Virus record (IMG/VR): IMGVR_UViG_3300046468_001700
Coordinates: 1 to 23,855 of that record
Strand: one strand, 5' to 3'
DNA length: 23,855 nucleotides
From: a virus
Part shown: piece after piece, positions 3,308-23,717 of the stretch
Layout of the letters: the number at the start of each line of letters is the position of its first letter
Position numbering within the stretch: position 1 is the stretch's first letter
Notes under the pieces: model-generated
What the model was told of the DNA's origin: nothing
The model's input: only the letters and a program-made list of their open reading frames with translations
Database searches by the model: none
Position numbers and translations under genes: made by a program

Positions 3308-3313
3308 GGTTTT

Positions 3314-4182: not shown

Positions 4183-4460
4183 ATCTTTTTAATCTTCCAT
4201 GTTTCTGGGTTTTTAACCTTCGAGTTTTTTACTTCAATCTTCAACGTTTTCTCTGCGAGCGATAGTGGCGAGAGCGTCTCCAACGCGTTGACGACTGCTT
4301 TGAGTGCAAGTGTTTCTTCGGCACTGGTGCCAGGATCAAGGAGTTTGGCGAGGTATCTACTTCTTTCTTTTTGAAAGCGTTTTTCAAGATGTATAAAAGC
4401 TTCATCGGTCGTTAATCGTTTTAAGTCTGCGAGTTTGTCGAATATTAATATGTCTGTCAT
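4179..4460 (-). CDS. Small helical phage protein, 93 aa, unknown function
   Basis: The protein is predicted from its pattern to be mostly helical and charged: a first helix around ILIFDKLADLKRL, a second around FIHLEKRFQKERSRYLAKLL, then DPGTSAEETLALKAVVNALE and a basic C-terminal tail ending ETWKIKKI. The arrangement of a helix ending in xLLDPxT followed by a second amphipathic helix resembles small conserved proteins I recall in marine podovirus structural regions, but I cannot name the family. It overlaps the gene before it (ATGA, 4457-4460) and the 43-aa gene after it (ATGA, 4179-4182), so translation of the three is probably coupled. Possible roles are a connector-associated protein or a small assembly factor. 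No enzymatic residues are visible. Confidence 0.7.
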   Translation of the reverse strand: MTDILIFDKLADLKRLTTDEAFIHLEKRFQKERSRYLAKLLDPGTSAEETLALKAVVNALETLSPLSLAEKTLKIEVKNSKVKNPETWKIKKI

Positions 4461-4837
4461 ATGATTAAAGAAGTTAAATTCTGCGGACCTGCCGCAGGGG
4501 CTACGACGGATAAATTTGACGGACCGGAAACTGGAACTGAAAACTCAACAGATTCAAGATTTGCAGGACCAAGATCTGGAGCTACTTGGGACAGATTTTG
4601 CGGCCCGAAGGTAGGAGCAAAATTTGAAACGATTAAACACCCGTAATTTTTTCTTACAACCGGGCTTCGTCTTTTTGTAAAAGTTACTTCGGCCTCTTCA
4701 TCTCTATCTATGTCGCAGTATGCTTTTTTAACTGAGCCCGGAAACCTTTTTGCTTGTAGGCCGAAATATTTAGGACTTACACCGAATTTGATGTAGTTAT
4801 CCTTATTATACTTCTTATTTTTATATGCTCGGCTCAT
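4457..4837 (-). CDS. Short PxxGP-repeat protein, relative of the neighbouring 654-aa appendage protein
   Basis: 126-aa protein in two parts. The basic N-terminus (residues 1-66) lines up loosely with that of the 654-aa gene just upstream: a Lys/Tyr-rich start, a PxY motif, then DIDRDEEAEV at 42-51 where the larger protein has a DxDGDGD calcium-loop-like sequence, then a K-R-x-x-V-x-x-K stretch. The C-terminal part (73-122) holds four PxxGP units, FAPTFGPQNL, VAPDLGPANL, SVPVSGPSNL and VAPAAGPQNL, with prolines at 75, 87, 102 and 114 (spacing 12, 15, 12). The protein ends right after the repeats, so it looks like a propeller-less version of its neighbour. The start is 15 bases after the neighbour's stop. 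Role unknown; a co-assembling or capping partner of the larger appendage protein is a reasonable inference. Confidence 0.8.
   Translation of the reverse strand: MSRAYKNKKYNKDNYIKFGVSPKYFGLQAKRFPGSVKKAYCDIDRDEEAEVTFTKRRSPVVRKNYGCLIVSNFAPTFGPQNLSQVAPDLGPANLESVEFSVPVSGPSNLSVVAPAAGPQNLTSLII
4472..4621 (-). repeat. Four PxxGP peptide repeats, coding
   Basis: Region encoding residues about 73-122 of the 126-aa protein, with four units of the form (V/A)-P-x-x-G-P-x-x-L. Spacing is irregular (12, 15, 12 residues), unlike the regular 14-residue array in the neighbouring gene, suggesting an older or decayed copy. Confidence 0.75.
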
Positions 4838-4852
4838 GTTAAAAAATTTGCA

Positions 4853-6817: not shown

Positions 6818-6837
6818 TAAGCAACGGCACTCATAAT

Positions 6838-8856
6838 TTATTGTTGGTATTGGTTCATGCCTCGTGGGTTGCTATTACCCATACCGGCGGTTGCTGCTGA
6901 AACTCCATCCTTTGGCTCATTGGCATTCTCCATGGCCGATGCATTATCACCAAGCATCTTGGCAATTTCTGCTTCGCTCTTTGGATCGGGCGGTGCTTCC
7001 TGAGGTAGTAATTCATCCGTTCTTTCAAATCCCATAGCATCAAGAATACGCTTGAGCATAGGACGAATGAATGGACGCATTTCGGGAGGTGATTGAAAAT
7101 ATCTATCTTGTGTTTGCAATGCGAGATTTGCTTTCTCTATAGCCCTTTGACCTTGATCCTGAGACAAGATGACTCTGGTATTTATACCAATGTTTCTGAT
7201 CGCATCCGGAGTCATTACTCCAAAGGCTCGAACATCGCCTTCCATGTATTCAAAGACTTCTTCTTCATCCATCGTTGCCATGGATATTTGTACAAGTTTA
7301 GTCAAATGCTCCTCAAATCCACGAACAATTCTACGCATCCAACGACGACCAATCTTAGAAGCTTCTCTTAATGTTGCTTCGACTCCAGTCGCTGTATTAG
7401 CAGGAGCTAAGGCTTGATAATCTCCCTGTGCCATATTGGAAACTCCTAGCCATAGTTGGACGATACCAAACACAAAATCAATTAACTCTTGCGTCTTAAT
7501 ATCAACATTAGGAATCGCAGAGAATTGGATGAAGTCATCAATGTTATATTGATCCTTCAATTCGAAGATCTTACCAGCGTGCAGTTCAACATCCTCAGGC
7601 TCATCCTCTACGGCCTGTGGGTTAACACCCATGATCGGATTGGCTGCGAGTTCATTACGATAGCTCTGAGAATTAAACTGCTTATCGACATACTCCTGAA
7701 AAGATCTGATCCTTTCGGGAAGGCTTTTTCCGCACCACTTGTTTCTATCTTTTCCGATAGAAACAGCGGTGTAGGGAATGCGGTTATCTGGGGTAAGCTT
7801 TGCTACAAATTCGTAATATAAAATCTTTTTGGCCTCAGGGTCTACAAACACACAGAACTCTTGAGGATCACCGGTACCAAGAACATCACGCTTAACCCAG
7901 CATTCAAGAATCTGAACACTTGGATTTTCTTCATTATCAAAATCTAAGTTCTCGATTCTATCTTCGTTCTTCTCGATCGGACTTCTGGGGTTGGCGTCTT
8001 TGTTAACCAAATTGAAATAGTCACCAAAATTTATCCATTCACGCTCGAGGAACATCTTCTGAGCCCAGCGCATATCTTTATCGTAAAGCTCTACTACGAT
8101 ATCGGCGTCCTCAAGAGACTCTGCGGTTGTCGGGCATAGGAAACGATCAGAGTCTATAACCTCTGACCTAGGACCTTTGTACTTAACCTGCTGGGTTGGA
8201 ACACCCTGAGGTAAAGGTTGAAATTCATGAACACCGGGTATCATCTGAAAGCTGGGATCGGAGGCAAGCCGAAGCTCTGACTCACCGGTCATTGGATTCA
8301 TCTCTGGGATAAACTGTGCCTCACCTTCAATAATCGGACCTTCACCAGGAATCTCCTCAAACTCGCCTCGTTCGTTGTTGAATAATCCGTTTCTCTCATA
8401 ATCGTACCAAGTAGATACTTCTTCCTTGTAGGTGGATTTTAATACCAAAGCCCGTTGGATAAATAAATGGAGATAGGATTCTTCCAAACGCTCACGGGTT
8501 TGGCCTTTGTCCTCAAGCTTCCAGTTAAAGTATTTGTCGTAGGCTTCGGCTGATTCCTGATCTCCTGCTCCCTGGGCCTCAAATTTAAAGTATGGGCTTG
8601 TGCCTGTGATCTCATCTTCAGCCCTAGCCATAAAGTGATCGACCACAAGACTGGTCATAGGGATGGATAAATTAGAATTACTAAAAATACTGTCGTACCC
8701 TACCCGATCAGTTCGATCATTATGGTACATCTTCCAAGAAACTTTATCATGCTCAATACGCTCACGGTTGTCCTCCTTGAGCTGCTCTACTCGATCGAGT
8801 AAGTATTTTAGGAGTTTATCCTCCTGTTTTTTGTTTATCTTTAGATTGGTTTCCAT
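6838..8856 (-). CDS. Portal protein (head-tail connector)
   Basis: 672-aa protein recognised as a podovirus-type portal, the dodecameric ring through which DNA is packaged and ejected. The charged helical N-terminus (ILKYLL-like, residues 10-45) is followed by a conserved central region: GKSLPERIRSFQEYVDKQFN (376-395) and ANPIMGVNP (405-413), the helix-rich part common to portals. Then comes VQLWLGVSNMAQGDYQAL (466-483) and ANTATGVEATLREASKIGRR (486-505), a portal signature (TATGxxxxxxxxxxR), leading into the stem and wing helices. The C-terminus (612-672) is acidic then Gly/Asn/Gln-rich and probably disordered or barrel-like. The length is normal for the family. The start is two bases downstream of the giant gene's stop and lacks a Shine-Dalgarno sequence, so translational coupling is likely. 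The assignment is by pattern recognition, not a search. Confidence 0.88.
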   Translation of the reverse strand: METNLKINKKQEDKLLKYLLDRVEQLKEDNRERIEHDKVSWKMYHNDRTDRVGYDSIFSNSNLSIPMTSLVVDHFMARAEDEITGTSPYFKFEAQGAGDQESAEAYDKYFNWKLEDKGQTRERLEESYLHLFIQRALVLKSTYKEEVSTWYDYERNGLFNNERGEFEEIPGEGPIIEGEAQFIPEMNPMTGESELRLASDPSFQMIPGVHEFQPLPQGVPTQQVKYKGPRSEVIDSDRFLCPTTAESLEDADIVVELYDKDMRWAQKMFLEREWINFGDYFNLVNKDANPRSPIEKNEDRIENLDFDNEENPSVQILECWVKRDVLGTGDPQEFCVFVDPEAKKILYYEFVAKLTPDNRIPYTAVSIGKDRNKWCGKSLPERIRSFQEYVDKQFNSQSYRNELAANPIMGVNPQAVEDEPEDVELHAGKIFELKDQYNIDDFIQFSAIPNVDIKTQELIDFVFGIVQLWLGVSNMAQGDYQALAPANTATGVEATLREASKIGRRWMRRIVRGFEEHLTKLVQISMATMDEEEVFEYMEGDVRAFGVMTPDAIRNIGINTRVILSQDQGQRAIEKANLALQTQDRYFQSPPEMRPFIRPMLKRILDAMGFERTDELLPQEAPPDPKSEAEIAKMLGDNASAMENANEPKDGVSAATAGMGNSNPRGMNQYQQ

Positions 8857-8858
8857 GT

Positions 8859-11800
8859 TTAGATAAGAGCGAGCGCCTGAGCTTTTTTAATTGTTGCGGT
8901 TAGCATATTTAACTCTTTTCTCTCAAGGTCTTCAATCCGTTGGGATTTTTCAGAATGACTCAACTTAGAGTTTTCAATTTTCTTCTTTAAATCTCTAAAT
9001 TTAGATAACCTTCCGTCCATGTACTTCATTTGAGGTATCCACTGCAGAACATTAGCGTTTTTCCGTCTTATAATAGCCGCTTCAGCTGGACCGACTTTTT
9101 GTGCATCAGCTAATGCGTCTTTAACAGGGAGAACGCTATCTCGAAGATTGTAGTATGCTCTGCGAGTTGCGCTGCCATATGTGGTAGTTTTTAAGAATCT
9201 ATTAACGATAGGAGCTTTATTTATGTCCAAATCATATTCTTTTTTGCTACTAATTAATGGATATACTAAATCGCCAAACATATAATTAATGATCTGACCT
9301 GGACCTGCAGTGTAACCCATTACAAGATGCTCCATCTCAGATCCAGACATATCAAATTGATACTCACCCCTTGCCTTAGCTAGTGCCGGGTTACCTCCAA
9401 ATATACCGCCAACAGATCCTTTGATGTTATCATCGCCGCCCATGAACTTGTTTATCGCTTCAGAAGTACTGGTCCAAAACTCCTGCGTTCTTTTTGGATC
9501 CATTTTAAATGCCGGCTCTTCCGACCCGAATTGACGGTCGTCCTTACGGATCGGTGATCCCATAAAATTTTGATTGGCCATAAGATCAACGATCGGTTGA
9601 CCGAATGAAGGGACAAACGCACCTGATAGAGTTGCACCACCGATCGGATTGAACGCATTCATTACAGAAGTTGCGTTACGGCTGAACCAGTCCAAGGGCC
9701 CAATACCTCCGCGCCCAGTCCAATAATTAGCCACAATATCAGCAGTAGTCTGACCGAGCGCCCAGAACACATTATATCCAAGAGCTAAAGGAATACTGAA
9801 TGCACCAGTATCCCTACCTGTTTTATCTTCAAAACCGGGTATCTTGTTAACACCTGGAATGATAAGGCTAGTGTCTCTTTTGTAAGAGCTGATCGTATCG
9901 TAGTCAGGCATCTCCTCATCGTCATCGTCATCGAGAAGACGGTTAAACATAGCAACACCGAAGGATGCAGCAATAATGCTACCGAGAAGCATTTTACGCT
10001 CCTGAGGAGTACGGTTTTTGAGTGTTCTGTAGAATCTGTCTGCTGAGTTCATCGATGCCCCGAAGAACACAAACAAAGAGCCGAATGACTGCGTAAGGTT
10101 GCCTTTCTGATTGAAGTCTACGGTTACATTACGAGAAATTGTGGCTGCTTGCTGAGGCGTTCTTCCCGCTTCAATTGCAGACCAGAAAGAGGACATACGA
10201 ATTGAGTTTTCAACCGCGCTGTTAGCAGAATCAACATAATCAACCATAGACTTGAGAAACTTCTTAGCACCCTTCTTCGATTTAGGCTTCTGGTCTCGTA
10301 GTTTCTCGATTAGCTCAGGAACAGTCTCGTGTTTAAAATATCCAATCTTAGCACCCGCAGCTTTTGCAAACTGATACATTTTAGCGTAGTCACCTGATTT
10401 TAATATTTCCTGAGCACTTGCTATATCCATGGGGAACTTACCAGGAACTTTCTCACCCTTAGCCAAAGCTATTTCAGTTTTGAAAATAGCTTTCATAAAA
10501 CCAGTTAGACGTTTACGCTGAAAAGTACCTTTAAACACATCTTTCTTATCAGTTTCCGACAAATGAATCGCGGCACTCTGCAAGTCACGGAAGAAGTTGG
10601 GAATGATGAAAGCGGGGTTTAAGGATGTGAATACACGAGCAAGATACCTTGTTATGGTATTAAAAACTCCTAGTACTCGTGGGAGCGCCTCATATCTAAG
10701 ATTCTTTATCGATACAGCAATCCTTGCTCCGCCTGGCTTAAACTTAATCATGTGCGGCTCACCCATTTTACGATAGACAAATAAAAGCGGGTCGTTACGC
10801 ATGTTTTGCAGCGACGAGTCTATCGTCTTACGGTACATCTTAAGACCAGGCACATCTTCACCGTCTACGACTACTTTCTTCTCCTCTATCTTGTAGCCTT
10901 GCTTTACATCTATTTTGCTGGAATCTTTTTCGAATATCTTATCAAACTGTTTTTTGATCTCAGCTTTTGTAGATTCATCAAGATTTTGAAGCTCGGCTGG
11001 TAAAGTGCTTTCCCCCTCGTTTAGTTCAGGGTAAGAGATTTCTCTCATATATTCGTAGATTCTACCAAAAGCCTGGGATACTGTATTCTTATGTGCTCGG
11101 ATCGCGGCATTGAAATATTGAGACTGAGCAACTGCGAATACAGTATTCGGATCTGGAGCTATGTTGTTAAGCCTACCAAAAGCACCCTTCTGCATCAGAA
11201 CGTGCTTTGGTTGATCCCATCCCTTACCTGCGGATGCACTGGATTTACCTACTGCTTCGTATGCCTGCTCGTTATCAAATAATGTCTCGGTCTCACCCTC
11301 GAATCCCTGCATCGGAGCATATGAGTAGTTATCTTTAAGTTTAGCTTTAGAATGCTTAGATATGTCATACTCGGACATGGAAAGTACCATGGCCTTCATC
11401 TCGTCAAGATCTCCTTTACGGATTAAACCACCCTCCTGCATTAGCTGCAAAGCCTCGCGGTTCATGTCATAGAAAGCCTGTAGAGGGTTTGTTGAATCGC
11501 CAATGAATCCGGATATGGCTGAGGTTTTTTCCATTTCCTGCATCTGCTCAATAGCATATTCAGTATCGATACCACTCAGCGAATCGCCGCGTTCATTCAG
11601 CATTTTCTGCAAGCCTTTATACTCAGCACTATCCGGATCAAGATCCTTAAGATACTCCTTGTACATCTTCTTCAACCTTAGGTTTCTACTTGGAGCAGCT
11701 CGGAACAAAAGGTATCTGCCAAGCATTTCATTGGAAACACCGTGCTTCACCATCGCATCCTTGATAGGTTGGACAAATTGGATCTGAGACTGCTCTACGG

Positions 11801-14800
11801 TATTATAACCCTTACCATAGTACTGATGCCACAAGCCTCCGACATCTATTGCATCAATAAGATTCTGATCTTCAATCCCTATCTCTTTAAGGAAATTCTC
11901 GACTACCTTTTTTACGGGAGCAGACTGATCGATTACAGCGGTCTGAAAATCAAAATTCTCGAGAGTTTTGCGATACTTGTCTTTAGTCTCATCATCAAAC
12001 CCAGCTCTTTCGGCCAGACTCTTTAGCAGGCTCAGACGAGTGTATCTGTCCTGCATGCCTGATGATAGTGCATAGCTCGAACCAAGAGCTATGTCATCCG
12101 GCTGGCCTTTTTCTATTTTTTTCCGGGCGTTGTAATTATCTGTTTTTGCCTTAATCCCTGGCTTGAGTTTTTTGTAGTATTCGTTGTGCCAACGCTTTAA
12201 TTCATCCCAATTTACATCATACGCACTTATAGAAGCGGGTGGACCGACCTGTTCAATATACTCAGGATCAAACTCTTCATCAGGAAGCACTTTTTTGTAC
12301 CATTCGGGAGGTACGGCTCTATTGTCATTAATTTTTTTAGAGAATAGACGCCAAAGCTCTTTACTATTTTTAGGAGCGTTTTTTGGCAGATATTCAAATT
12401 TAGACCAGTCGATATTATTAGATTTAGCCAGAAGGTTCAGTTTGTTCGTGTCAGGGATTGTTTTAAATGAGCTGTTAAAGCTGGAACCGAGAGCGGAGTC
12501 TCCGTCTATCTGCTCAAACAAGAACTGCTTCTGCTTCGGACTCTTCTGCCCTGCGACCTTTGGCTTTTGGCCTACGGTTTCATCCTTTAAAATTAGCCTT
12601 CTGAATGTTTTGTAATTACCGTGCTTCTTAAGCTTTTGGCTGTATGCATAGTCTTCAAAATTCTTGGTTGGCTTAGGTAGCTGAACAAATTTCCAGAAGA
12701 TATCGTTGTTTCTAAAAGCATCAATTACTCCGTCCAAAGTCAGATTGTCAGAGGTCTCAAGTCTGAAGAGTGTGGGCATGATCTTCTTGTCATCAGATGC
12801 TTTGGCATCGTGTTTTTCAATCTTGCTGAATATTGGATGATTTGCAGATGCAAACGACTGAGGTATACTTTTATTCTGTATAGCCCGACCAGGCATATCT
12901 GAAGTAGACTCTTTTTCTAAAGAGTCTTCACTAAACACTTCTCGGTTAGTTTTTCCGGAATCAAACTCGGTGTTTTGGAAAACTCCTTCAGGTAGTTCGC
13001 CTTCTGCGTCATCAAGATGCATGAGCATATTTCGCTGCTGAAGATTACCTCCGGAGGCCATGTTCTTCGATGTTTTATCTTCATCAAGAGATACACCCTC
13101 AGAGATACGAAGTCTTCCTGCATCGGCCACAGCCTTGATCAAAGGCAGAGTCATTTCGGCCATAACCTTAGGATCAGGCACACCGTCTGTGAACATAGTT
13201 CCTTCTACGCGGTTCCCATTAACGAAAAAGCTCTTACCATCAAAATTCCATTTGTGTTCGGTCTCTTTGTTTAGCTGTGCGGCAATTGATTCAGGATTTA
13301 AACCTACTTTCTGGTATGCTGCTGTAATAAACTTGAACCAAATATACGGAAGAATCCCACCGGCTGGTCCGCCAGGTAGTTGCTTAAGCTCTTTACCACC
13401 GCTTGCCAAAGTTCTTTCTGTTTTACTAGAAGGCTCCCACGCGAGCTGCCCCATTGTTTTAACAATATTACCGTTATTTTCGTTAGTCTTTTCAACAACA
13501 TGTTGTACGAACTGAGCTACACTCACATCGTTACCGGAAGTAACTCCTTTTTTAGCTTCAGCATCAAAATCAGAAATAGTGTCAAGCACCATTCTGGAGT
13601 ATGCTTCGTTTGCTTTCCCTTGAGCTGATTCGGGTAGAGCTCTGTTGTTGCTTGCGTATCTCCATACACCCTGCTTGCGGATAACTTTTACCTTCTTGTT
13701 ACCACGAGACGGCATCTCGATCGGAGTAGACATGTCCTCAGGAGGTGTCGAAGATATTTGCTTTCTCAATCTTTGCTCAATCGAGAATGCACGAATTGGA
13801 TCTGCAAGCTCGGAGAATCCAAAAGTGGTTGTGTGTTCAACAAAATTAGTACCTTCTTTTTCTCTACCTTCAGAAAACATTCTTAATGTAGAAATACCTT
13901 CATCAATCGCACCTCTCTTAAAATCGGCACGATTTTTACCTTCTCCTGATATAACCTCCTGATCCTGCTCTCCCGCAACTAAAAACTCATAATCATCACC
14001 TAAAGATTCTAAACCTAAGAATCTGAAATCCTTAACTTCCTTTTTCCGGATAATCTCTTCATCCAACTTAGCTTGGGCCTCTTCTTTAAGGGCTTCGTAT
14101 TGTCCGAGGAGTTCCCTGAGGCGGGCTGCATTTTCAGTGAGTAAACTGACTGACAAAGGGCGCTTATCCTGCTCTTTCAAGGCTCGCTCTTTCTCGATCT
14201 GAGAGTAGGTTACTCTACGACCAACAAACTTGCTGTTAATGACTATGAGAGATTCATTGATGGCATTTTCTCCTAGAGTATCTACTGCATCGAAAAGAAA
14301 GCGTCTTTGCGGGCCTCTATTGCTAGATGTGCCCGCATCTTTTTTGATATCGCTCTCTATGTAATCAAGCATCTTGTTGATTGCATCTTCACGATCCTGA
14401 TAAAACAAAAATTCTGTGAGTGCAGATGTCCAGGGCTTACCGCTGTGAACTTTGGGAAATAAACCTGCGGATTCTTCGCCCTGCATATCGGCCAATGCAA
14501 AAGGATCAAATATGATGTTGGCGAGAGCTCGCTTCATTCTAGTAATAGAATCTTGGCGACTAAATTTATCAGGACCTATACGATCAGCTCCAAAATCTTT
14601 ATCTGCTTTAGATGACTCCTTTGAGTTTTCCTTCTCAAGCCTCTGAATTTCTTCCTGCAAGAATACAGCTCTACGCTCAAGGATATTCATTATCCGTTGA
14701 AGCTTGTATCCGCTAAATTGTCTGTCGTCTAAAATCTCAAGCTTAGATCCCTGTGCAACTTCGTAGATCACTGTCTCCTCAAGGCGTAATCTTTCCATAC

Positions 14801-17800
14801 GCCCATTGGTCAGCTCGCGGGTAAATCTTTTTCCTGTTTCGCGCATCTGCTTCTTATCCATCATATGCTGACGGAAAAGAGCCATGGCTGCATGAGTAGT
14901 TCCACCATTCTCTACCTGAAAATATACGCGGTCTTTGCGGGGTCGTTCGTTACCTGCGTCATCCTTAACAAGATTAGTCATAGGCTTTTCCATAGCCTTC
15001 TGAGGAAGTCCGGCCGATGCACGGGCGGCGTCAAGCATGTTTAAGTAATCTTCTACGGTACCATCAAACCAAGTAAGCTTCTTATCTTTATCGTATATGT
15101 GTCGGTTGAAAGCTTGCTTAATTGCAGGGTCTGCCGGGCGGCCTATAGATACTCCTTCAGCCTCACTAGCAACACCGTTTTTCATATCTTCGACAAGAGA
15201 GTCCTTACCTTTACCAAAATGCTCGATTATCATTTCGTCGGTAAAGTCTTCAACCTTGGTCATCGCACCGTCAGAAACCTCATACAGGCCACCGTTACCG
15301 TTTTGATCGATCTGTAATGTGAGCTTCTTATTGTCGCGGGTAATATCTTTTGTCTGAACCGTTATCGGTTTCCGGGCAGGTGCATCGGGAACTTCACTTT
15401 CGGGGATTACATTACCTTTAGTGTCGTATACCAAGAATCCTACTCTCTTAGGTTCTTGAGCCTTTGTCTTTACCTCTTTCTTTTCAGCTTTCCCGGGTTC
15501 AGGAACAATACGCCAGTTTGTGTACTGCCACAGTACATTTGAAGGATCATCTACCTTAGTTTTTGTACCTTTTCGGTCATAAATCTTGTAACCAGATTCA
15601 GAGTTATAGCTGGCTAGCTCACCAAGTGTCATGCGGCGCAACTTACCATCAACCTTCACTTGATACTCAAAATGCGGAACATCGCGCCAATCGATTTTTT
15701 GCTTCTCGGGCTCGATCGCAAGGAGCATGTCCTTCATGATCTTGATATTTGCTTTAAGCTGTTTTATCTCAGCAGCTACCGCTCCCTTTTGAAATGCACT
15801 AGCTTGTACTGGTTTCTTCTTGGCTTTGGCGGGAGCTTTCTTAGCAGGGGCTTTTTGGTCCTCAATTTCGTAAAACTTAATATACTGATGCTGACTTTTC
15901 TTTACCCTCTTTTTTAACTCACCTAGTTGGTAACCGAGTTTTTTATCAAACTTCTCTGGTTTACCCTTTAGCTTTTTAGGATCTTTTGGATAGAAATCGG
16001 CTAACTGTCGGGTTTTAGGATTGAGATAAACATATTTACCCGGCCCATTTTGTTTGACCACGACATAACTTGATCCGAGGGCGGAATCTTCAGTCTTCTG
16101 CCTTTTCTGAGCATTCTTGCTAAGAAGTCGTTTAGGATCTTCTAAATACTTAAGTCTTTCTTCGGATTCGACTAATCGACCATTTATAAGAGCTGCAGCT
16201 CCTTCAACTTCCTGCTCGAATTGTTTGTAGGCTTCAACGACTCTTTGTGCATCCGGCTCTTTGGAGCTTACAATTTCTGTAAGATCATCGGCTACTCTTG
16301 CACCAGAAAGAACTGCAAATTTTTGGAGCTCTTTAATTTGTAGCATCTCAGCGATGATCTGGCCGTGTGTAATATCTGCTTTAGTTAATGCTTCAGCCTG
16401 TTTTTTGCTTTCCTTATCACCCCGTGCGATGAGCTCGTCTTTTCTCTCCTGCAATAAATTTTCCTGTATGCTGTTTGAGCTTTTTTCAAACTCCTTCTCG
16501 TTCATCAGGGCTTTTGTATTTGCCGCTGTTATTTTACGAACCTTGCTCAGATCATTCTTACTTGTGCGGGTAGTTAAGTTCTGGACAATGTTTATTGAAG
16601 ATGTGCGAGAGTCCGTAATTTTATCTACTTCTTCTTTTTGCTGAGCTACACGCTTGGTTCTGGTTTCATCTTCTGATGCTATCTTACCATCTGGGCCAAC
16701 TGATTCAGTTCCTCTATCCGGTACTTTTGTAGTTAGCTTATCGACCGCTTCTTTGGCATCTTCGCCTTCCAACCCTTCATATATCTTGGCAGTAGCTTCG
16801 GTGTCTTCCACACCTATCTGGGCCTCGGCTAACGGGCGAACCATATCGCGAAGCTCTCGCTTGGTGTACAGGCTCATATCTGTCGATAGAACCTTTTCGC
16901 CAATGATCTGATTGATCATGTTGACCAGGCGTTTGGCTTCGTCCAATCCTTGAGTTTGGGCAACAGTGGCTACTTCACGCATCATGGCATTTAAGCCATC
17001 TTCATCCCCCATTTGGCTAAGTTTGTTCTCACCCTCGAAGAAACGGTATTTCATTCCTGGGCGTTCATGCTGAAACTGACCAAAAGTTACATTGTTTCCA
17101 AGCCCCTCTTTGAACCCTCTTGGTGTATATCCCATGAACTGAAGAATCCTTGCATCAAGCATAGCCCGCTGCTCGGCCTTACCGCCCTGAGCCTTGGATC
17201 CTGCGAAACCTTCGACCATTGGATGAAGCGTATTCTTAAGAAAGTTTTGCAACTCGGTCTTTACCGAATTGTCTGCTGTATTTCCTGTTAAAACACGAAC
17301 AAAGTTATGAGCGAACCACTCTTCTGCCTGCTGCAAAGAGCTCATATTTTTCATCGCGGCATCTATCTTTTTCTGACCCGCTTCATCCAATGCAGAATAC
17401 TTCTGATTGTGATTCTTTGTATCATACTGAGCCATCGTGTTTTTCTGCTCATCGGGTCCAATAGCCGCATACAAATCAGTCAGCTCCTTTGTGGAAACAC
17501 CCATAAGGATACGGGCAAAGTGACTGCCCTCATGCAAGAATACACCTAATGGATTCTCAGGGATTGTCTTACGATTGATAAAGATGACATTGTCTTCATC
17601 CCGGCCGACATCCTGATTGTCCACATGATGAAAAGATCCCTGCTGATTCTTGTCCGAAAACGGTGTACGATCAGCGATAACGATCTTAAGATTCTCCATC
17701 TGTTCCTTATTCGATGCATACATACGAGCCATGTTATCGGTAAGGATGTTCAGTGCATTCTGTCTCTCCTCCTCGCTCTGAAAGTTACCCTGATCTATAA

Positions 17801-20177
17801 TATGTTGGGCTGCGGCCTGTGACGTCTCGAAGGTGTTATATACATTGGAGAAACCAGCCGCATCAATCTTACCAGTTCTACCCATCTCTGTTGCTTTATC
17901 GGCCGACAGATTAAACGGAACATTAGAAACATCCAGATTTCGTGTGGATGTGTACTCATACGCACCCCCTAGAAGACCAGGACCAAGACCGATTAAACCT
18001 TCCGCAGCAATCGCATTTGTGTCATACGCTTCGCCTGGTTCTTTTGTCCATGCCTGACCAAGAAACTCACCACCCATACCAAGAGTTGCATCAGCTGCAA
18101 CATCAGTTCCAATATTTCTTGCTCTCTGAAAGGCAGTGAAACGAGGGTATGTCTTCTTGGATCTTGCCCAAGCCTTACCATCAATAAGCTTACCGCCCTT
18201 GAACGCATTACCACCATGGTGCAAAGCTGCGTTAAGACGACCAGACATCATACCGGAAGCGGCATCAAACAATGCAATCGGAAGTCCCTTCTTAATAGCT
18301 TTCTCCTTCATCGCATCACGAGTAATTTGATTATTCCAAGCTGCTGCGAATACCTTTGGATTCTTCCAATCAATATTTAACTCCTGCATACCCTGCAATA
18401 TCATGCTGGAGTATTCGATCATTAGTGATGAAACACCCCAGTTAGCACGGGCGGCATACCCTGCACCGGCCAGTGTTCCGCCGGGTACTGGAGTTGCAAA
18501 ACCAATAGCAGCACCGGTGGGGATGGTGTACATACCTGTTCTTACATACGCCGGAAGGAATGATGATAGTGACTCAACAAATAACTCAGGAATCGCTTCA
18601 GTATTATCAAATAATAAATTACTTACTGAATCCCACAGCCCTTTTGATTTGTATTGTTGGAAATTCTTAGCTGCCTGACTTGTAGGAATCTCTCCCAACT
18701 GTTCAGCAGCTTCAATAAATTTTTCAAAGTCCGATTGATCAGCAGCATTGAGGAAAAAATCGTCCGCATATTTGCTCATCTCGTTTACTTTTTGACCACG
18801 ACGAAATGCATTTGCGATTGACTGACCCATGCGAGCAAAGAAGCCTTTCTTTTCAGTCTGCTCTACAATTTCATCGGTCAGTCCATACTCATTCGCAAGC
18901 TGAATGGTCTTGTCAAAATAGATTTTTGCATCGTCTATCTTCTTACGATCAGCGGCTTTTCGGCCTTTAGCAAAATAATCAATCTGTGCTTGCTCGTATG
19001 TGTCGTAAGATGCTCTTACCGCCTGGACAATCTTGGCGACATTTACTCTTTCTTCACCACCAAGCTCATTGATTGCCTGCTCTATAGGTACACCCTTGTA
19101 CTCTTTGATTCCACGATCGCGGAGATCGCTAAGATCAAGAAGATCGACATCATTTCGGCTCATTCCTGTAGGGCGATTGTCCATCAACCCGTTCTGAGAA
19201 AACATGAATCCGCGATCCCGCATCTTTCGCTCCTGCGCCACAAGGCTTCTTCTCTTGCCAAACACTCCTGCGAAGTCACCGTCAGCAGCAGCCTGCATTC
19301 TAGCCTTCTGATCCTGGGAAGATACCGAAAGTTTTCCTGTTTTATAATCAGGTAAATCACCTACACCTCTTCTCGGATCCGTGTTTTCGAGGTTTATAAC
19401 CTGGCCAGACTTGTAGTCAAAAAGTGGATCCTCAAAGCTGTAATTTTCAAGGGTCTCTGCCATCTGCTTACGGCGACTTGACGAAGATCCTGAGCTGGAA
19501 GACTTGTTCTTAAGCTGATCATCCATAGCCATGCGGGTCTGCATAGGTATAGATGTTAAATGATTCCTGAGTTTATCCTGCTCCTGACGGTAGAAATCCA
19601 CCATTTCAGTTTTCTGATCACGCTCAGCTTTAAGTTTACGATATTGATCTCTTAAACCGTTCGGCGCATTCCACTGGCTAAACTGGCTAAGTGACTGGCG
19701 AGCTAATTTCGTATCGTCAGACTCACCGAAAAAACCATCCTTTTGCTGGCTGGTTTTTAGCGTTTTCTCGTACAGTTCATCAAGATTCCTAAAGTAGTCA
19801 TCCTCGTTCTCAAACTCATCTATTGGATTAAGACTTTTAAAGAAAGGCATGAACTTGTTATCCTTAAAATCCTCATACCTTTTCTTTGCTATTGAGGCTG
19901 AGCTGTTAAACGCAGATACATCGCTATTTAAATACTGTAACTGCTTTTTACCCCTATCGTATGAGTCAAGGTACTCGTCTTCAAAAACATTCTGAAAAGC
20001 TGGCTGACCACTTGATTGCGGATCTACTGGCGGTTGAACCTGCTGTTGCTGAGGCATCGGCCCCCCAAACGGTTGGTATTTTTTCTGTACCGGTTTGCTG
20101 GTAAATTGACTTAGGCTGTCTTTTTTTTCGCCTGAGTAATCATCAGCCCCCAGATCTATGTCGTCGAAGAGGGACAT
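8859..20177 (-). CDS. Giant polyvalent phage protein, 3772 aa, with HExxH peptidase-like motif and LPD38-like C-terminus
   Basis: Single uninterrupted frame filling almost half the window. Residues 1-500: disordered, Gln/Pro-rich then coiled-coil, with a Ser-rich linker near 225. About 528-600 and 680-745: hydrophobic Gly/Ala-rich segments (e.g. TGAAIGFATPVPGGTLAGAG) of the kind seen in phage ejection and large polyvalent proteins, likely membrane-active. Residues 882-886: HEGSH, a zincin HExxH motif in the context GVFLHEGSHFARILMG, with a possible third ligand at E952/E953 (AEEWFAH). About 1000-1500: charged helices and an Ala/Lys/Pro linker near 1450. The middle has no recognised fold. About 3160-3770: SLNPAFIIPNFFRD, a hydrophobic helix near 3396 and NKAPIVNRFL near 3660, matching large polyvalent protein associated region 38 (LPD38) of Iyer and colleagues. 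ALGSS(Y/F) occurs at 1366, 2562 and 2697. Known relatives are virion-borne multi-domain proteins ejected into the host. Ejection and self-processing are inference. No RNA polymerase or lysozyme motifs were found. Confidence 0.85.
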   Translation of the reverse strand: MSLFDDIDLGADDYSGEKKDSLSQFTSKPVQKKYQPFGGPMPQQQQVQPPVDPQSSGQPAFQNVFEDEYLDSYDRGKKQLQYLNSDVSAFNSSASIAKKRYEDFKDNKFMPFFKSLNPIDEFENEDDYFRNLDELYEKTLKTSQQKDGFFGESDDTKLARQSLSQFSQWNAPNGLRDQYRKLKAERDQKTEMVDFYRQEQDKLRNHLTSIPMQTRMAMDDQLKNKSSSSGSSSSRRKQMAETLENYSFEDPLFDYKSGQVINLENTDPRRGVGDLPDYKTGKLSVSSQDQKARMQAAADGDFAGVFGKRRSLVAQERKMRDRGFMFSQNGLMDNRPTGMSRNDVDLLDLSDLRDRGIKEYKGVPIEQAINELGGEERVNVAKIVQAVRASYDTYEQAQIDYFAKGRKAADRKKIDDAKIYFDKTIQLANEYGLTDEIVEQTEKKGFFARMGQSIANAFRRGQKVNEMSKYADDFFLNAADQSDFEKFIEAAEQLGEIPTSQAAKNFQQYKSKGLWDSVSNLLFDNTEAIPELFVESLSSFLPAYVRTGMYTIPTGAAIGFATPVPGGTLAGAGYAARANWGVSSLMIEYSSMILQGMQELNIDWKNPKVFAAAWNNQITRDAMKEKAIKKGLPIALFDAASGMMSGRLNAALHHGGNAFKGGKLIDGKAWARSKKTYPRFTAFQRARNIGTDVAADATLGMGGEFLGQAWTKEPGEAYDTNAIAAEGLIGLGPGLLGGAYEYTSTRNLDVSNVPFNLSADKATEMGRTGKIDAAGFSNVYNTFETSQAAAQHIIDQGNFQSEEERQNALNILTDNMARMYASNKEQMENLKIVIADRTPFSDKNQQGSFHHVDNQDVGRDEDNVIFINRKTIPENPLGVFLHEGSHFARILMGVSTKELTDLYAAIGPDEQKNTMAQYDTKNHNQKYSALDEAGQKKIDAAMKNMSSLQQAEEWFAHNFVRVLTGNTADNSVKTELQNFLKNTLHPMVEGFAGSKAQGGKAEQRAMLDARILQFMGYTPRGFKEGLGNNVTFGQFQHERPGMKYRFFEGENKLSQMGDEDGLNAMMREVATVAQTQGLDEAKRLVNMINQIIGEKVLSTDMSLYTKRELRDMVRPLAEAQIGVEDTEATAKIYEGLEGEDAKEAVDKLTTKVPDRGTESVGPDGKIASEDETRTKRVAQQKEEVDKITDSRTSSINIVQNLTTRTSKNDLSKVRKITAANTKALMNEKEFEKSSNSIQENLLQERKDELIARGDKESKKQAEALTKADITHGQIIAEMLQIKELQKFAVLSGARVADDLTEIVSSKEPDAQRVVEAYKQFEQEVEGAAALINGRLVESEERLKYLEDPKRLLSKNAQKRQKTEDSALGSSYVVVKQNGPGKYVYLNPKTRQLADFYPKDPKKLKGKPEKFDKKLGYQLGELKKRVKKSQHQYIKFYEIEDQKAPAKKAPAKAKKKPVQASAFQKGAVAAEIKQLKANIKIMKDMLLAIEPEKQKIDWRDVPHFEYQVKVDGKLRRMTLGELASYNSESGYKIYDRKGTKTKVDDPSNVLWQYTNWRIVPEPGKAEKKEVKTKAQEPKRVGFLVYDTKGNVIPESEVPDAPARKPITVQTKDITRDNKKLTLQIDQNGNGGLYEVSDGAMTKVEDFTDEMIIEHFGKGKDSLVEDMKNGVASEAEGVSIGRPADPAIKQAFNRHIYDKDKKLTWFDGTVEDYLNMLDAARASAGLPQKAMEKPMTNLVKDDAGNERPRKDRVYFQVENGGTTHAAMALFRQHMMDKKQMRETGKRFTRELTNGRMERLRLEETVIYEVAQGSKLEILDDRQFSGYKLQRIMNILERRAVFLQEEIQRLEKENSKESSKADKDFGADRIGPDKFSRQDSITRMKRALANIIFDPFALADMQGEESAGLFPKVHSGKPWTSALTEFLFYQDREDAINKMLDYIESDIKKDAGTSSNRGPQRRFLFDAVDTLGENAINESLIVINSKFVGRRVTYSQIEKERALKEQDKRPLSVSLLTENAARLRELLGQYEALKEEAQAKLDEEIIRKKEVKDFRFLGLESLGDDYEFLVAGEQDQEVISGEGKNRADFKRGAIDEGISTLRMFSEGREKEGTNFVEHTTTFGFSELADPIRAFSIEQRLRKQISSTPPEDMSTPIEMPSRGNKKVKVIRKQGVWRYASNNRALPESAQGKANEAYSRMVLDTISDFDAEAKKGVTSGNDVSVAQFVQHVVEKTNENNGNIVKTMGQLAWEPSSKTERTLASGGKELKQLPGGPAGGILPYIWFKFITAAYQKVGLNPESIAAQLNKETEHKWNFDGKSFFVNGNRVEGTMFTDGVPDPKVMAEMTLPLIKAVADAGRLRISEGVSLDEDKTSKNMASGGNLQQRNMLMHLDDAEGELPEGVFQNTEFDSGKTNREVFSEDSLEKESTSDMPGRAIQNKSIPQSFASANHPIFSKIEKHDAKASDDKKIMPTLFRLETSDNLTLDGVIDAFRNNDIFWKFVQLPKPTKNFEDYAYSQKLKKHGNYKTFRRLILKDETVGQKPKVAGQKSPKQKQFLFEQIDGDSALGSSFNSSFKTIPDTNKLNLLAKSNNIDWSKFEYLPKNAPKNSKELWRLFSKKINDNRAVPPEWYKKVLPDEEFDPEYIEQVGPPASISAYDVNWDELKRWHNEYYKKLKPGIKAKTDNYNARKKIEKGQPDDIALGSSYALSSGMQDRYTRLSLLKSLAERAGFDDETKDKYRKTLENFDFQTAVIDQSAPVKKVVENFLKEIGIEDQNLIDAIDVGGLWHQYYGKGYNTVEQSQIQFVQPIKDAMVKHGVSNEMLGRYLLFRAAPSRNLRLKKMYKEYLKDLDPDSAEYKGLQKMLNERGDSLSGIDTEYAIEQMQEMEKTSAISGFIGDSTNPLQAFYDMNREALQLMQEGGLIRKGDLDEMKAMVLSMSEYDISKHSKAKLKDNYSYAPMQGFEGETETLFDNEQAYEAVGKSSASAGKGWDQPKHVLMQKGAFGRLNNIAPDPNTVFAVAQSQYFNAAIRAHKNTVSQAFGRIYEYMREISYPELNEGESTLPAELQNLDESTKAEIKKQFDKIFEKDSSKIDVKQGYKIEEKKVVVDGEDVPGLKMYRKTIDSSLQNMRNDPLLFVYRKMGEPHMIKFKPGGARIAVSIKNLRYEALPRVLGVFNTITRYLARVFTSLNPAFIIPNFFRDLQSAAIHLSETDKKDVFKGTFQRKRLTGFMKAIFKTEIALAKGEKVPGKFPMDIASAQEILKSGDYAKMYQFAKAAGAKIGYFKHETVPELIEKLRDQKPKSKKGAKKFLKSMVDYVDSANSAVENSIRMSSFWSAIEAGRTPQQAATISRNVTVDFNQKGNLTQSFGSLFVFFGASMNSADRFYRTLKNRTPQERKMLLGSIIAASFGVAMFNRLLDDDDDEEMPDYDTISSYKRDTSLIIPGVNKIPGFEDKTGRDTGAFSIPLALGYNVFWALGQTTADIVANYWTGRGGIGPLDWFSRNATSVMNAFNPIGGATLSGAFVPSFGQPIVDLMANQNFMGSPIRKDDRQFGSEEPAFKMDPKRTQEFWTSTSEAINKFMGGDDNIKGSVGGIFGGNPALAKARGEYQFDMSGSEMEHLVMGYTAGPGQIINYMFGDLVYPLISSKKEYDLDINKAPIVNRFLKTTTYGSATRRAYYNLRDSVLPVKDALADAQKVGPAEAAIIRRKNANVLQWIPQMKYMDGRLSKFRDLKKKIENSKLSHSEKSQRIEDLERKELNMLTATIKKAQALALI

Positions 20178-20187
20178 TACTTAGGTC

Positions 20188-21642
20188 TTAGGAGAAAGGG
20201 TTGTGAATCTCGTCTTCGCCCCGATGCTTACGGAAAGAGTTTATGACATCAAGCTGCTGCCTTTGGGGCATAGCATTAATGTTACGCATCATGGTGTCAG
20301 TTCGGGGGGTAGGTGCAGTAGCAACCGGACCAGTATACTCTCTAGCTCGTGGTCTGAACTCAGTTCCAAAAGGATTGTTATCCGTGAAGCGTTTGCGGTT
20401 TTCGTCATCCTCATTGTCCTGCCTAAGTAGATTATTCAACATAGTCTTTTGATTCTGACCTTGAGGTGCCTGTATGAAACGGCCCTTCGCTGATCCTTCG
20501 TTAAAGCCCATAAAACCTTGGCTGCCGTATCTAGGTATGTATCTAGGGGTCGGTTTTTTAGCTTCTGCGGCGGGAGCGGGAGCCGGAGCCGGAGCCGTAG
20601 CCGGAGCCGGAGCATTATTCTCACGAGTCATGAACTCAGTTTTTGGCATGGCAGGCGTATCCGCTGTTGTCTGCTCCTGAACCATACTAAGATCCTTAGC
20701 CCTATCGTATTGAGGTGGGCGGACTTGAGGTTCAAATTCAGTTTCCTGAGGAATATTATACGGCATGTCAAGACTCTGCCCACCCCCAGCAACAAGATCC
20801 TCTGGCATTTTCCTAGAGGCTACAGAAGCTCCACCCGTTACTCTCGTAAGCTCGCGCTCAAGATCAGCATCGGACATATTATCAAACTCTTCCTGAGTTA
20901 TATATTCCCGGGTTTGCGAAGCAGTAGAGGCTTTTGGTTGAGATTCATCGTAAACACCAGCAATACGTTTTTTAACAAATTTTGCACGCATTTCAGCTTG
21001 AGTTTTATCGTCTAATTCATCGAAAGATTTACCTGAAGATATAGCTCCGTAAGGGCTTCTATTATAAGTTTCACTTAAATCACGCTCTCTCGCGTCCATG
21101 ATTTCCTGAATCCGCTCATTGGCTTTTGATTTCTTATCCTCGCCACGAATCTGACGACGCGCTGAATTAAGAAGATCACCTTGTATATTCTCCTGTATAG
21201 CCTCACCACGATCGCGCTTACCTTCAAAACTACCTATAGCCCTCCCTGTACGAAGCTCATTCATACCTGGAGATGCTAAATTCGGCTCCTCCGTCTGCTC
21301 TGGGCTTTGTCTGGATACAGGTTCATCTAAAGTGGCTTCAGGATTCCTTTTTTGCACATTTTCTTGATACTGCGGGTCATCTAAAAGTTGCTGCATAGAT
21401 CTTCCACCAAGCTCCTTCTCAAGACCTGATATTTTATTTGTAAGACCTTGATTAATACTGCCAGTCCATGCATTGCGGAGCATCGGATTATCTGAATCCT
21501 TAAGATCATCAAACCCAAATATCGAATCTTTATTAGTATTTATCCAATCTTGATCAACTTCTTCAAGTCCGCCTAAAGGTCCACCACCCCTTTTTTGCTT
21601 TCTAGCGTAAAGTTTTCCGTCACGAGGTTCTAGCTTGTACAT
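20188..21642 (-). CDS. Disordered charged protein, 484 aa, unknown function, between terminase and giant protein
   Basis: No family recognised. The N-terminus (MYKLEPRDGKLYARKQKRGG, then DQDWINTNKDSIFGFDDL) looks partly ordered. Residues 60-300 are highly charged, Gln/Glu/Arg/Lys-rich and helix-prone (e.g. RIQEIMDARERDLSETYN). Residues about 344-358 form an Ala-Pro linker (PAPATAPAPAPAPA), followed by PRYIPRYGSQGFMGF and a basic-aromatic C-terminus ending DEIHNPFS. There is no signal peptide, membrane segment or catalytic motif. It ends 10 bases before the giant gene and begins 23 bases after terminase, so all three are probably co-expressed. Its position and low complexity suit a virion-internal, scaffold-like or ejection-partner protein, but a chaperone for the giant protein is equally possible. 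The start ATG at 21642 is the first in frame; no strong ribosome-binding site is seen. Confidence 0.75.
   Translation of the reverse strand: MYKLEPRDGKLYARKQKRGGGPLGGLEEVDQDWINTNKDSIFGFDDLKDSDNPMLRNAWTGSINQGLTNKISGLEKELGGRSMQQLLDDPQYQENVQKRNPEATLDEPVSRQSPEQTEEPNLASPGMNELRTGRAIGSFEGKRDRGEAIQENIQGDLLNSARRQIRGEDKKSKANERIQEIMDARERDLSETYNRSPYGAISSGKSFDELDDKTQAEMRAKFVKKRIAGVYDESQPKASTASQTREYITQEEFDNMSDADLERELTRVTGGASVASRKMPEDLVAGGGQSLDMPYNIPQETEFEPQVRPPQYDRAKDLSMVQEQTTADTPAMPKTEFMTRENNAPAPATAPAPAPAPAAEAKKPTPRYIPRYGSQGFMGFNEGSAKGRFIQAPQGQNQKTMLNNLLRQDNEDDENRKRFTDNNPFGTEFRPRAREYTGPVATAPTPRTDTMMRNINAMPQRQQLDVINSFRKHRGEDEIHNPFS
20569..20613 (-). repeat. GC-rich hexanucleotide tandem repeat encoding an Ala-Pro linker
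   Basis: Near-perfect tandem copies of a six-base unit (ggagcc on the plus strand) within the 484-aa gene, encoding alternating Ala and Pro with one Thr interruption. Alternating Ala-Pro runs form stiff extended linkers. Such a short-period repeat is prone to copy-number change during replication. Confidence 0.85.
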
Positions 21643-21665: not shown

Positions 21666-23426
21666 TTAAGGCATCAACCGCTTGTAATTCTTCTTAATAG
21701 AACCTAGAGGCGCCCGCATGAAGCCATCAGGGCACATCATGGATGGATTTTTACGTAACATCCGATTGCTAATCTTTTTCTTCTTGGGACTCTTGAATGT
21801 CGTTGCACTGTCAATGTTATACAATGCAATAGCCGCAGCCAGGACATGATCATCATGATGACCCGGAGCTGCTTCCGGCTTTCCGCGATCATTAATTACA
21901 AAGGTTTTAAACTCTCTTAACACTCCTTCATCCGGGATATCCACATTCTCTTCTATAATTTCCGAAGCCAGATGGTCTATAACGGTCTTTCGTGTGATTT
22001 TATCCGTAGACCACCCAAAACTCTTCTCAACCATGCCCATAGAATCGTTATATTTACGCCTTCTATAAACAGATAGACCCATTTCCAGTAGATACTTTAA
22101 TAATGCCAGCCCAGAATTGTTAACTTCGGGGATTACGAACGCATTTCCATAAAATCTAGCAGCCGCTTCAACCTCATGCGCTAATATGCCAATATCTACG
22201 CGCGAATGGTGCAATGCTACCAATCGGGGAACATGCCAATCGCCATGCCAATCCTCAAAGGGTGCCCTCCAAACCTGCACGGAATGGTAATCAGGATCTG
22301 CAGCCAAGCCCTGGGTCTGTTGATCCTCACCCGTGCATGTATCCGCAGATATTAAATACTTGGAATCATACTCAGGCTCATCATAAATCTTCCACATACC
22401 AGCCCTATCGGGCGTGAATGAAGAGTTTTTGCTGTCACCCTGAACAGCTAAATTCCCAATACGGCATTTCTGACCGCTACACGCTTTGTGCATAGAATCA
22501 ACATTGGCCATATGAAACCTAGGGCGAGATGACATAAGGAAACATTCATCAGGATCCGAAGGATACTCCTGTCGAAACTTACTTAAATCACCGTTGCACT
22601 TGTCCTGGAGGACACGACGACGCCAATTCAATTGCTCATAGTTAACATCAAACCGTTTCATCTCCTGCTTCTCGTCCTCGGTCATCGTATCAATGAAGTC
22701 CTGCTTCATATCATCGTTCGCAAACGGTACTACGGAGTCCTCAAATTCAAACCAGGCGGCGAATATCTTGGCCCATTCATTGTCCTGAACCCATGTCCTA
22801 TAGAACCAGCCATTCGGACCGTTCGGTGTGGAATCAGCCACAACCAGGGATACCGCATCCCCATCATATAAAGACTGCAAATAACCCAAAGCAGGGTCAC
22901 GCTCGCCCTGCATAGGCCAGAACGCAACCTCCGTCATGTTACCAACCTGGATTGTTCCGCTTCTTCCCGCGTTTTTGGAACCCGCAGTTTCCTTTCCGTA
23001 TTGGCTTCTTGTTTTTAGCTTTATCAGATCCGCGAGATTGCCACCGTCCTCCAGGTTTATTCCTGTACCGTCCCACGGAAAATGATCGTTTTCCGCGTAT
23101 CTTCGATATATCTCGAACACTTTGTCCGATGTACCGCTTATGTCCCCCATCAGACTCCCGCTTAAGTTCTCGTACTTTCTCATATGATGATATGTCAGGG
23201 CTTGAGCGCATGTGCTCGCTCCCTTCTGACGAGGTTTCAGAATGATCATTTTGCATGGGAGACTTTCAATTTGGCATTTTCTGTAATGGGCGAACATACG
23301 CCTCTGAAGCGTATTGGCTTTTGGTTTGATATCTTTACCACGCTTATCTTTAATTACCGCAAATGTTGAAAACCAGACCTCCGGATCAATGCGGATGAGG
23401 TCTGCCAGCTGCTCAGGATCACTCAC
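21666..23426 (-). CDS. terL: Terminase large subunit (DNA packaging ATPase and nuclease)
   Basis: 586-aa motor that drives DNA into the procapsid through the portal and cuts the concatemer. ATPase part: Walker A-like KPRQKGAST (64-72); Walker B with catalytic acid in MTEVAFW (Glu166); coupling-type motif VADSTPNG (196-203). Linker region: RQEYPSDPDECF (285-296), a common terminase signature. RNase H-like nuclease: Asp362 in LISADTCTGE, Glu434 in PEVNNSG, and Asp525/Asp526 in HHDDHVLAAA. All key acidic residues are present and the length is normal, so it should be active. The start is taken as GTG at 23426: the codon directly follows the TAA of the 96-aa gene, and GGAAG sits 6 bases upstream. 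The next in-frame ATG would remove much of the N-terminal ATPase domain. No obvious small terminase subunit precedes it. Confidence 0.95.
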   Translation of the reverse strand: MSDPEQLADLIRIDPEVWFSTFAVIKDKRGKDIKPKANTLQRRMFAHYRKCQIESLPCKMIILKPRQKGASTCAQALTYHHMRKYENLSGSLMGDISGTSDKVFEIYRRYAENDHFPWDGTGINLEDGGNLADLIKLKTRSQYGKETAGSKNAGRSGTIQVGNMTEVAFWPMQGERDPALGYLQSLYDGDAVSLVVADSTPNGPNGWFYRTWVQDNEWAKIFAAWFEFEDSVVPFANDDMKQDFIDTMTEDEKQEMKRFDVNYEQLNWRRRVLQDKCNGDLSKFRQEYPSDPDECFLMSSRPRFHMANVDSMHKACSGQKCRIGNLAVQGDSKNSSFTPDRAGMWKIYDEPEYDSKYLISADTCTGEDQQTQGLAADPDYHSVQVWRAPFEDWHGDWHVPRLVALHHSRVDIGILAHEVEAAARFYGNAFVIPEVNNSGLALLKYLLEMGLSVYRRRKYNDSMGMVEKSFGWSTDKITRKTVIDHLASEIIEENVDIPDEGVLREFKTFVINDRGKPEAAPGHHDDHVLAAAIALYNIDSATTFKSPKKKKISNRMLRKNPSMMCPDGFMRAPLGSIKKNYKRLMP

Positions 23427-23717
23427 TTAGCACTTCCAACGTCTACGCGCTTGCCGAAGTCTGCTATTGGGGTCTTTAGCTGCCTTTGGAAATTTTTTCA
23501 TCTGACCAGCAGAACGGGAGCAATAAGATTTACGACGCTTGGCCGATTTACTCCCCTTCTTTACTTTGCCGGTCACAGCTCCTTTGAGCTTGGATCCAGG
23601 GTTATCCTTACGATACTTCGCAATACCCTTCTTTGTCATACCAGCACCCTTCTTGGTTGGGCGTTTATGCCCTCCCCCAATCGTGTGCCCTTTCATAGAA
23701 CCCTTCTTACTTGCCAT
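23427..23717 (-). CDS. Small very basic phage protein (DUF6321-like), 96 aa
   Basis: 33 of 96 residues are Lys or Arg and only two are acidic. The N-terminus is Gly/Lys-rich (KKGAGMTKKGIAKYRKDNPG). The C-terminal half has SKSAKRRKSYCSRSAG (56-71, Cys66) and RQARRRWKC (88-96, Cys96). This matches a small family I know from marine podoviruses, with a pattern close to RRKSFCxRMxG followed by ALRxWxC; I recall it as DUF6321, though the number should be checked. It is normally found near terminase and structural genes. The charge suggests binding to DNA or to an acidic virion surface; the two conserved Cys/basic patches hint at a small folded core or metal site. It overlaps the 37-aa gene by 11 bases and is in the same frame as terminase, separated only by one TAA. 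Confidence 0.85.
   Translation of the reverse strand: MASKKGSMKGHTIGGGHKRPTKKGAGMTKKGIAKYRKDNPGSKLKGAVTGKVKKGSKSAKRRKSYCSRSAGQMKKFPKAAKDPNSRLRQARRRWKC

Follow-up and report, generated by a model that had tools for sequence, protein, structure and literature searches.

A 3772-residue polyvalent-type phage protein with conserved ends, a variable middle and a repeated boundary motif

The giant gene in the 23,855-nucleotide stretch of viral DNA analysed here (the window) probably codes for a delivery protein of the polyvalent type, made by phages of an uncultured, podovirus-like group and having fixed ends and an exchangeable middle. Relative to the known polyvalent proteins, a new feature is a short boundary motif. 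We propose that an N-module (targeting peptide, helical Gly-rich part and zincin-like protease) and a C-module (LPD38) would together form a packaging and delivery frame, that the protein would be packed into the head during assembly and enter the host with the DNA, and that the middle would be a cargo bay, in which phages swap either the whole block or individual cassettes (about 130-700 aa) with one another. The swapped domains (ADP-ribosyltransferases, SLOG-type cpYpsA and extra zincins) would act early on the host. The cargo boundaries would be marked by short motifs that differ between lineages (ALGSS here; LNSD or LGSQ elsewhere); these are most likely read at the protein level and may be cleavage sites that free the pieces. 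Phage-injected proteins disarm the cell before phage gene expression, and most of this cargo lies hidden in giant proteins without annotation; a family with constant ends, swapped middles and recognisable borders would give a simple rule to excise cargo domains for one-by-one tests.

The giant gene, its neighbours and its relatives

The source record is a 23.9-kb IMG/VR virus contig with its clear genes all on the minus strand, in the order DUF6321, terminase large subunit, 484-aa gene, giant gene, SU10-like portal, and then tail/fibre genes. The features at the centre of this row are as follows.

21666..23426, minus strand: terminase large subunit (PHROG 24361 and PHROG 2)
20188..21642, minus strand: 484-aa low-complexity, disordered gene directly upstream of the giant gene
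8859..20177, minus strand: giant polyvalent-type gene, 3772 aa, ATG start, uninterrupted
6838..8856, minus strand: SU10-like portal protein (PF23899, E 6e-32)

These four genes adjoin one another, which places the giant gene in the portal-terminase neighbourhood used as a criterion for polyvalent proteins. A gene of about 400-530 aa also lies directly upstream of the giant gene in five of the six distant relatives examined (BcepIL02, a Stx phage, Vibrio 1.205.O, Ruegeria 45A6 and ctsTn925); in MetMV the upstream gene is shorter, with 267 aa. At the edges of the row, the DUF6321 protein before the terminase (23427-23717, minus strand) has 96 aa and is very basic, and several longer PHROG families have the same domain as their C-terminal end. 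In the 654-aa tail/fibre protein (4853-6817, minus strand) about ten short repeats of the pattern xPxxGPxxL follow one another, and this repeat is also found in the adjoining 126-aa protein (4457-4837). An 836-aa protein (797-3307, minus strand) matches a tail-fibre PHROG and, below threshold, PF06536, the avian adenovirus fibre N-terminal family (E 0.0015).

Relatives were collected from IMG/VR with the portal, the N-module and the C-module as baits, which gave 60, 37 and 51 partly overlapping loci, respectively. About 110 contig loci were fetched and reduced for redundancy to 44 giant proteins or pieces (L numbers denote the loci of relatives, and the window protein is the 3772-aa giant protein, P0001). 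The contigs include ones of 68.4, 68.8 and 68.9 kb, the group being of about 69 kb and uncultured, and genes for a major head protein, DNA polymerase, helicase and integrase are present on one of these three. The giant proteins of the group reach about 5850 aa and the homologue JC1 gp69 has 4515 aa, so the first-pass annotation's placing of the window protein at the large end in size did not hold. An integrase (PHROG 1, 8e-19) is found at L154:5452-6639 in the near-genome-size relative G016, and therefore part of the phage group may be temperate. A Flavobacteriales host was considered because one contig had been binned in a Flavobacteriales metagenome assembly, but this is too weak for an assignment.

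It was found that the giant frame is genuine, as first proposed: a single open reading frame on the minus strand, with stops throughout the plus strand across it. The independent contig L080 corresponds to residues 1-1386 of the protein with 100% identity, and L004 to its C-terminal part with 96% identity. Pairwise comparison of close relatives gives dN/dS values of 0.03-0.10 for the N part, the centre and the C part, and the giant gene is under purifying selection in these relatives. Because of these matches and the low dN/dS, the frame is not an assembly accident.

Conserved ends of the protein

Comparison of the window protein with 16 near-complete relatives divides it into two conserved modules and a variable region between them.

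16848..20177, minus strand: conserved N-module, residues 1-1110 (matches in relatives)
20058..20177, minus strand: N-terminal peptide, residues 1-40 (MSLFDDIDLGADDYS...QFTSKPVQKKYQPFGGP), conserved, starting the disordered region
17898..18545, minus strand: Gly-rich, mostly helical segment, residues 545-760 (alignment, AlphaFold model, hydropathy)
17178..17795, minus strand: predicted zincin-like metallopeptidase domain, residues 795-1000 (invariant residues and model topology)
12090..16847, minus strand: variable, putative cargo region, residues 1111-2696 (0-10 of 16 relatives match along it)
8862..12086, minus strand: conserved C-module, residues 2698-3772 (relatives and hhalign)
9273..9908, minus strand: LPD38 (PF18857), residues 3424-3635 (72.7 bits, cut-off 27)

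The N-module is matched by 15 of the 16 relatives over residues 1-100, by all of them over 101-1000 and by 11 over 1001-1100. At its start, L9, F25, K28, P29, Q35, P36 and F37 are near-invariant among 24 relatives. This peptide is possibly a capsid-targeting signal, by analogy with P1 DarB, a large head-packaged protein with a comparable targeting N-terminus, of which the N-terminal 30 residues are enough for head targeting (PMC9024508). The Gly-rich stretches had been described as two hydrophobic modules; they are Gly-rich indeed, but only mildly hydrophobic, with best 19-residue hydropathy means of 1.19 (residues 722-740) and 0.97 (552-570). The most membrane-like stretch of the protein (3397-3415, mean 1.63) lies inside the C-module.

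The HExxH motif that had been noticed is present at residues 882-886, and H882, E883, H886 and E953 are unchanged throughout (24 of 24). In the AlphaFold model of the N-module (mean pLDDT 67; about 80-88 in the zincin part), this part runs from a helix through three strands to the HExxH helix and the Glu helix. The order fits the description of zincins by Iyer et al. 2017 (PMC5512222), in which three strands are followed by an HExxH helix and a helix with a conserved Glu. From the invariant residues and the model, the N-module likely carries a zincin-like protease. Neither Foldseek nor profile searches of the PDB returned a zincin for this domain, and the only Pfam hint was a match of one member to DUF6782 (E 0.003). 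PDB profile searches with the N-module, C-module, centre and zincin alignments gave no match, and the best Foldseek match of the N-module in the PDB (E 0.22) was helical noise. Against viral models the N-module had five matches with E <0.001, all to first pieces of other large phage proteins; the fold matches include a protein annotated as LT_GEWL and, at lower strength, others annotated as RelA/SpoT or LPD.

The C-module is matched by all 16 relatives over residues 2701-3600 and by 14 over 3601-3772. The LPD38-like end predicted in the first-pass annotation was confirmed with E 5e-20, and it is the sole Pfam match in the giant protein, whose PHROG matches are confined to C-terminal parts of families without function. 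The unusual part of the protein had been placed at about residues 1450-3100. No recognised family lies there, as stated, but the extent has to be corrected to about 1110-2697, because the conserved C-module (about 2697-3772) far exceeds LPD38.

Variable middle and its boundary motifs

Between the two modules, residues 1101-2500 are matched by 3-10 of the 16 near-complete relatives and residues 2501-2700 by none, and the length of the middle varies among relatives from about 1090 to 3500 aa. For example, L034 is 61% identical to the window protein in the C-module, and the 1100 residues upstream share just two short stretches. The clearest case of exchange is the pair L117 and L118. Their synonymous codon differences at identical residues are 0.01-0.10 across L117 residues of about 1283-2568, whereas most of the N part lies at 0.2-0.6 and the C part reaches 0.62, and the right edge of the low-difference block coincides with the C-module border, where the values jump. 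The middle has therefore been exchanged as a block, since it is nearly without synonymous change and both flanks are strongly diverged. Single cassettes also come and go between relatives that are 85-96% identical: a 243-aa HExxH cassette inside the L118 block is absent from L117, and at one shared site L081, L082 and L130 hold about 425, 70 and 320 aa. From these comparisons, the middle is very probably exchangeable cargo.

Recognisable cargo was found in the relatives. ART-PolyVal domains in L064 (2.2e-8) and L025 (1.9e-7) are above the Pfam cut-off, each between two LNSD motifs; L085 has a cpYpsA domain of the SLOG superfamily (2.4e-23) at an insertion site matching window residues of about 1600-1680; and further HExxH motifs occur in the middles of L063/L130, L065/L120, L066, L067, L068, L081 and L118. 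The window protein has LPD38 and the predicted zincin, and the clear domains of a second activity (ART-PolyVal, cpYpsA) are in relatives only. Its own centre gave no family, PDB or structural match in Pfam, PDB searches, PADLOC and Foldseek. Thus, of the suggestion that the centre may hold new effector or counter-defence domains, the behaviour as exchangeable cargo stands and no such domain was found in the window protein itself, for the centre of which we infer a cargo function. An AlphaFold model of residues 1367-2562 (10 sequences) had a mean pLDDT of 48.6 and a pTM of 0.31 and is too poor to serve as evidence; its best Foldseek match in the PDB had E 1.0. PADLOC on the middles gave one marginal match (E 0.006).

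Two minor observations concern cargo regions of relatives. A NADAR-like segment (SNF...GGxxYxGxTxNTVEGAYQA) is seen in L085 at about 1720-1865, beside the cpYpsA cassette, and in L134 at about 1630-1790. It is a lead only, as the L134 segment is under the Pfam cut-off (E 0.017), the L085 segment gave no match and the PDB search gave a chance match; if real, it would be an ADP-ribose-related counter-defence cargo. The L085 giant protein also contains a tandem TEQK repeat of about eight copies at 2974-3010, inside the cargo region.

Within the window protein, one short motif divides the middle into a block and a cassette.

16068..16082, minus strand: junction motif copy 1, ALGSS, residues 1366-1370
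12492..16079, minus strand: putative cargo block between copies 1 and 2, residues 1367-2562
12480..12494, minus strand: junction motif copy 2, ALGSS, residues 2562-2566
12087..12491, minus strand: 135-aa cassette between copies 2 and 3, residues 2563-2697
12075..12089, minus strand: junction motif copy 3, ALGSS, residues 2697-2701, where the C-module begins

The 135-aa cassette has no BLAST match in any relative, and in L058 and L130 the junction is present and an insert of this type is absent there. ALGSS is the sole 5-mer found three times among the 3772 residues. Of 1000 locally shuffled versions, 12 contained a 5-mer this frequent, and the expected number of ALGSS copies in the centre is 0.002, figures to be read with the fact that the motif sites were spotted by eye before counting. 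Repeats within the protein are also found in other lineages, namely TLNSD four times in L120, LNSD twice in each of L114, L064, L140, L056, L025 and L095, LGSQL twice in L066 and LGSSF twice in L067. When the 4-mer at each protein's own junction was counted in 18 proteins, 14 interior copies were observed compared with 0.52 expected, where the relatives are not independent, LNSD being essentially one clade and LGSS occurring in two separate lineages. The LNSD proteins have nine LNSD and one LGSS as interior copies, and the LGSS proteins four LGSS and no LNSD. No junction motif was found in the N- and C-modules of 15 proteins. Five relatives (L085, L092, L100, L034 and L058) have the junction copy only, and in six (L117, L118, L134, L135, L136 and L099) the junction differs or is missing.

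These repeated motifs are probably either processing sites or cassette joints. That they are joints for cassette shuffling at the DNA level (recombination linkers), with no role in the protein, we rate at somewhat less than an even chance. The L081 cassette is flanked by an almost perfect 45-nt direct repeat coding PTSLGSGVDQSFNPF, which is not repeated in L082 and L130, and therefore recombination at joints also happens; moreover, three of the four motif copies in L120 are identical in DNA, which recombination could also explain. Against this, when the three window copies are compared together, every ALGSS codon shows synonymous differences, and nine of 12 core-codon comparisons differ synonymously with the residues kept (L066 is similar), the zero count of non-synonymous differences being by construction since the copies were chosen by their residues. 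Because the window copies differ in this way, it is the residues and not the DNA that are kept at the motif. A general head-protease site was also considered, but the remaining proteins on the contigs of four relatives show no enrichment of the motif, which argues against it. Cleavage of the motifs by the N-module protease is possible, though we hold it only tentatively. The same caution applies to the fuller reading as a self-processing polyprotein, in which the N-module zincin would cut ALGSS-type sites, so that one gene would package and then release separate effectors; the protease and its sites would co-vary across lineages, and cassettes would be gained or exchanged between phages at the sites. 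The family permits a direct test of the proposal of 2017 (PMC5512222) that a built-in metallopeptidase processes polyvalent proteins.

Probable delivery, alternative roles and known systems

The argument for delivery comes from the C-module. In an hhalign comparison, 851 columns of it align (probability 99.9, E 8e-36) with the final stretch, approximately 890 residues long, of the giant proteins in JC1, BcepIL02 and DC1, and identity to the JC1 homologue in the profile alignment is about 23%. CsCl-purified JC1 virions yielded 51 unique peptides of gp69 and nine of gp68, the product of the gene just upstream (PMC9144972). Presence in virions thus rests on a homologue, because no isolate of the phage group is known: among INPHARED isolates the N-module had no match and the portal a very weak match only. 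We judge it likely, from the C-module homology, that the window protein would be packaged and delivered with the DNA. The polyvalent reading of the first-pass annotation agrees with the layout and with this homology to virion-detected proteins, and neither outcome that it had named as refuting appeared: no continuous known fold was found to span the protein, and a distant homologue is present in virions.

Two other roles were weighed against delivery of effectors. The protein could be mainly a structural ejection protein of the internal core or ejectosome, similar to T7 gp16 but much larger, with a middle that provides length or elasticity and no effectors. Its gene adjoins the portal and terminase genes, its N-module is helical and Gly-rich, and lower among the matches to viral models there are weak structural ones (E about 0.5-0.6) to internal virion proteins of podophages. 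However, cassettes in relatives exceed the curated cut-offs of families with an enzymatic or ligand-binding role (ART-PolyVal, cpYpsA), a middle of such variable length is no constant ruler, and its dN/dS is as low as elsewhere; we regard this role as unlikely. No SLT transglycosylase, the T7 gp16-like criterion, was matched in P0001 or in the nine N-modules scanned. Even less probable, and in our opinion very unlikely, is a late-expressed, unpackaged protein acting inside the producing cell. The virion proteomics considered here come from JC1, outside the phage group, which leaves some room for it; the homology of the C-module to virion-detected gp69, the position of the gene between terminase and portal, the conserved N-terminal peptide and the positional counterpart of the upstream gene, gp68, in JC1 virions all speak against it.

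Under the preferred reading of a packaged, delivered protein, the closest known systems are the Bcep22-like phages (JC1 gp69, BcepIL02 gp70 and DC1; annotated as "DarB-like antirestriction"), which share the homologous C-module with LPD38 and, like the window, have one giant gene (theirs of about 4500-4700 aa) after a gene of roughly 500 aa, which in their case is a virion gene. At its N-terminus JC1 gp69 carries an SLT transglycosylase, and it also contains LPD3 and a match to an Eco57I-like methylase. The window protein lacks all three, and has its own HExxH N-module and a repeated junction motif; no 5-mer occurs three times in the BcepIL02 giant protein. Stx-converting phages (PHROG 616, about 2800 aa), Vibrio 1.205.O, Ruegeria 45A6 and MetMV share part of the C-module (23-29% identity), and their giant proteins have no BLAST similarity to the window N-module or centre. 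The Ruegeria phage 45A6 protein contains GNAT, methyltransferase and helicase domains. No DarB-type methylase, helicase or other domain had a Pfam match in the window protein.

The N4 virion RNA polymerase is an injected protein of about 3500 residues. It carries a metallopeptidase domain (PMC5512222); an N4-type RNA polymerase domain had no family or PDB sequence match in the window protein. Similar to the polyvalent proteins of Iyer et al. 2017 (PMC5512222), the window protein is very long, is encoded near portal and terminase, and has an LPD domain, a predicted metallopeptidase, ART cargo (here in relatives) and predicted delivery with DNA. The available text of that paper contains no description of fixed ends with exchange of the whole middle, or of lineage-specific boundary motifs. 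The shared C-module extends to an archaeal virus, Methanosarcina virus MetMV (L078, locus 4636-13644), in a giant protein of 3002 aa; in the 2017 survey (PMC5512222), polyvalent proteins were scarce in archaea.
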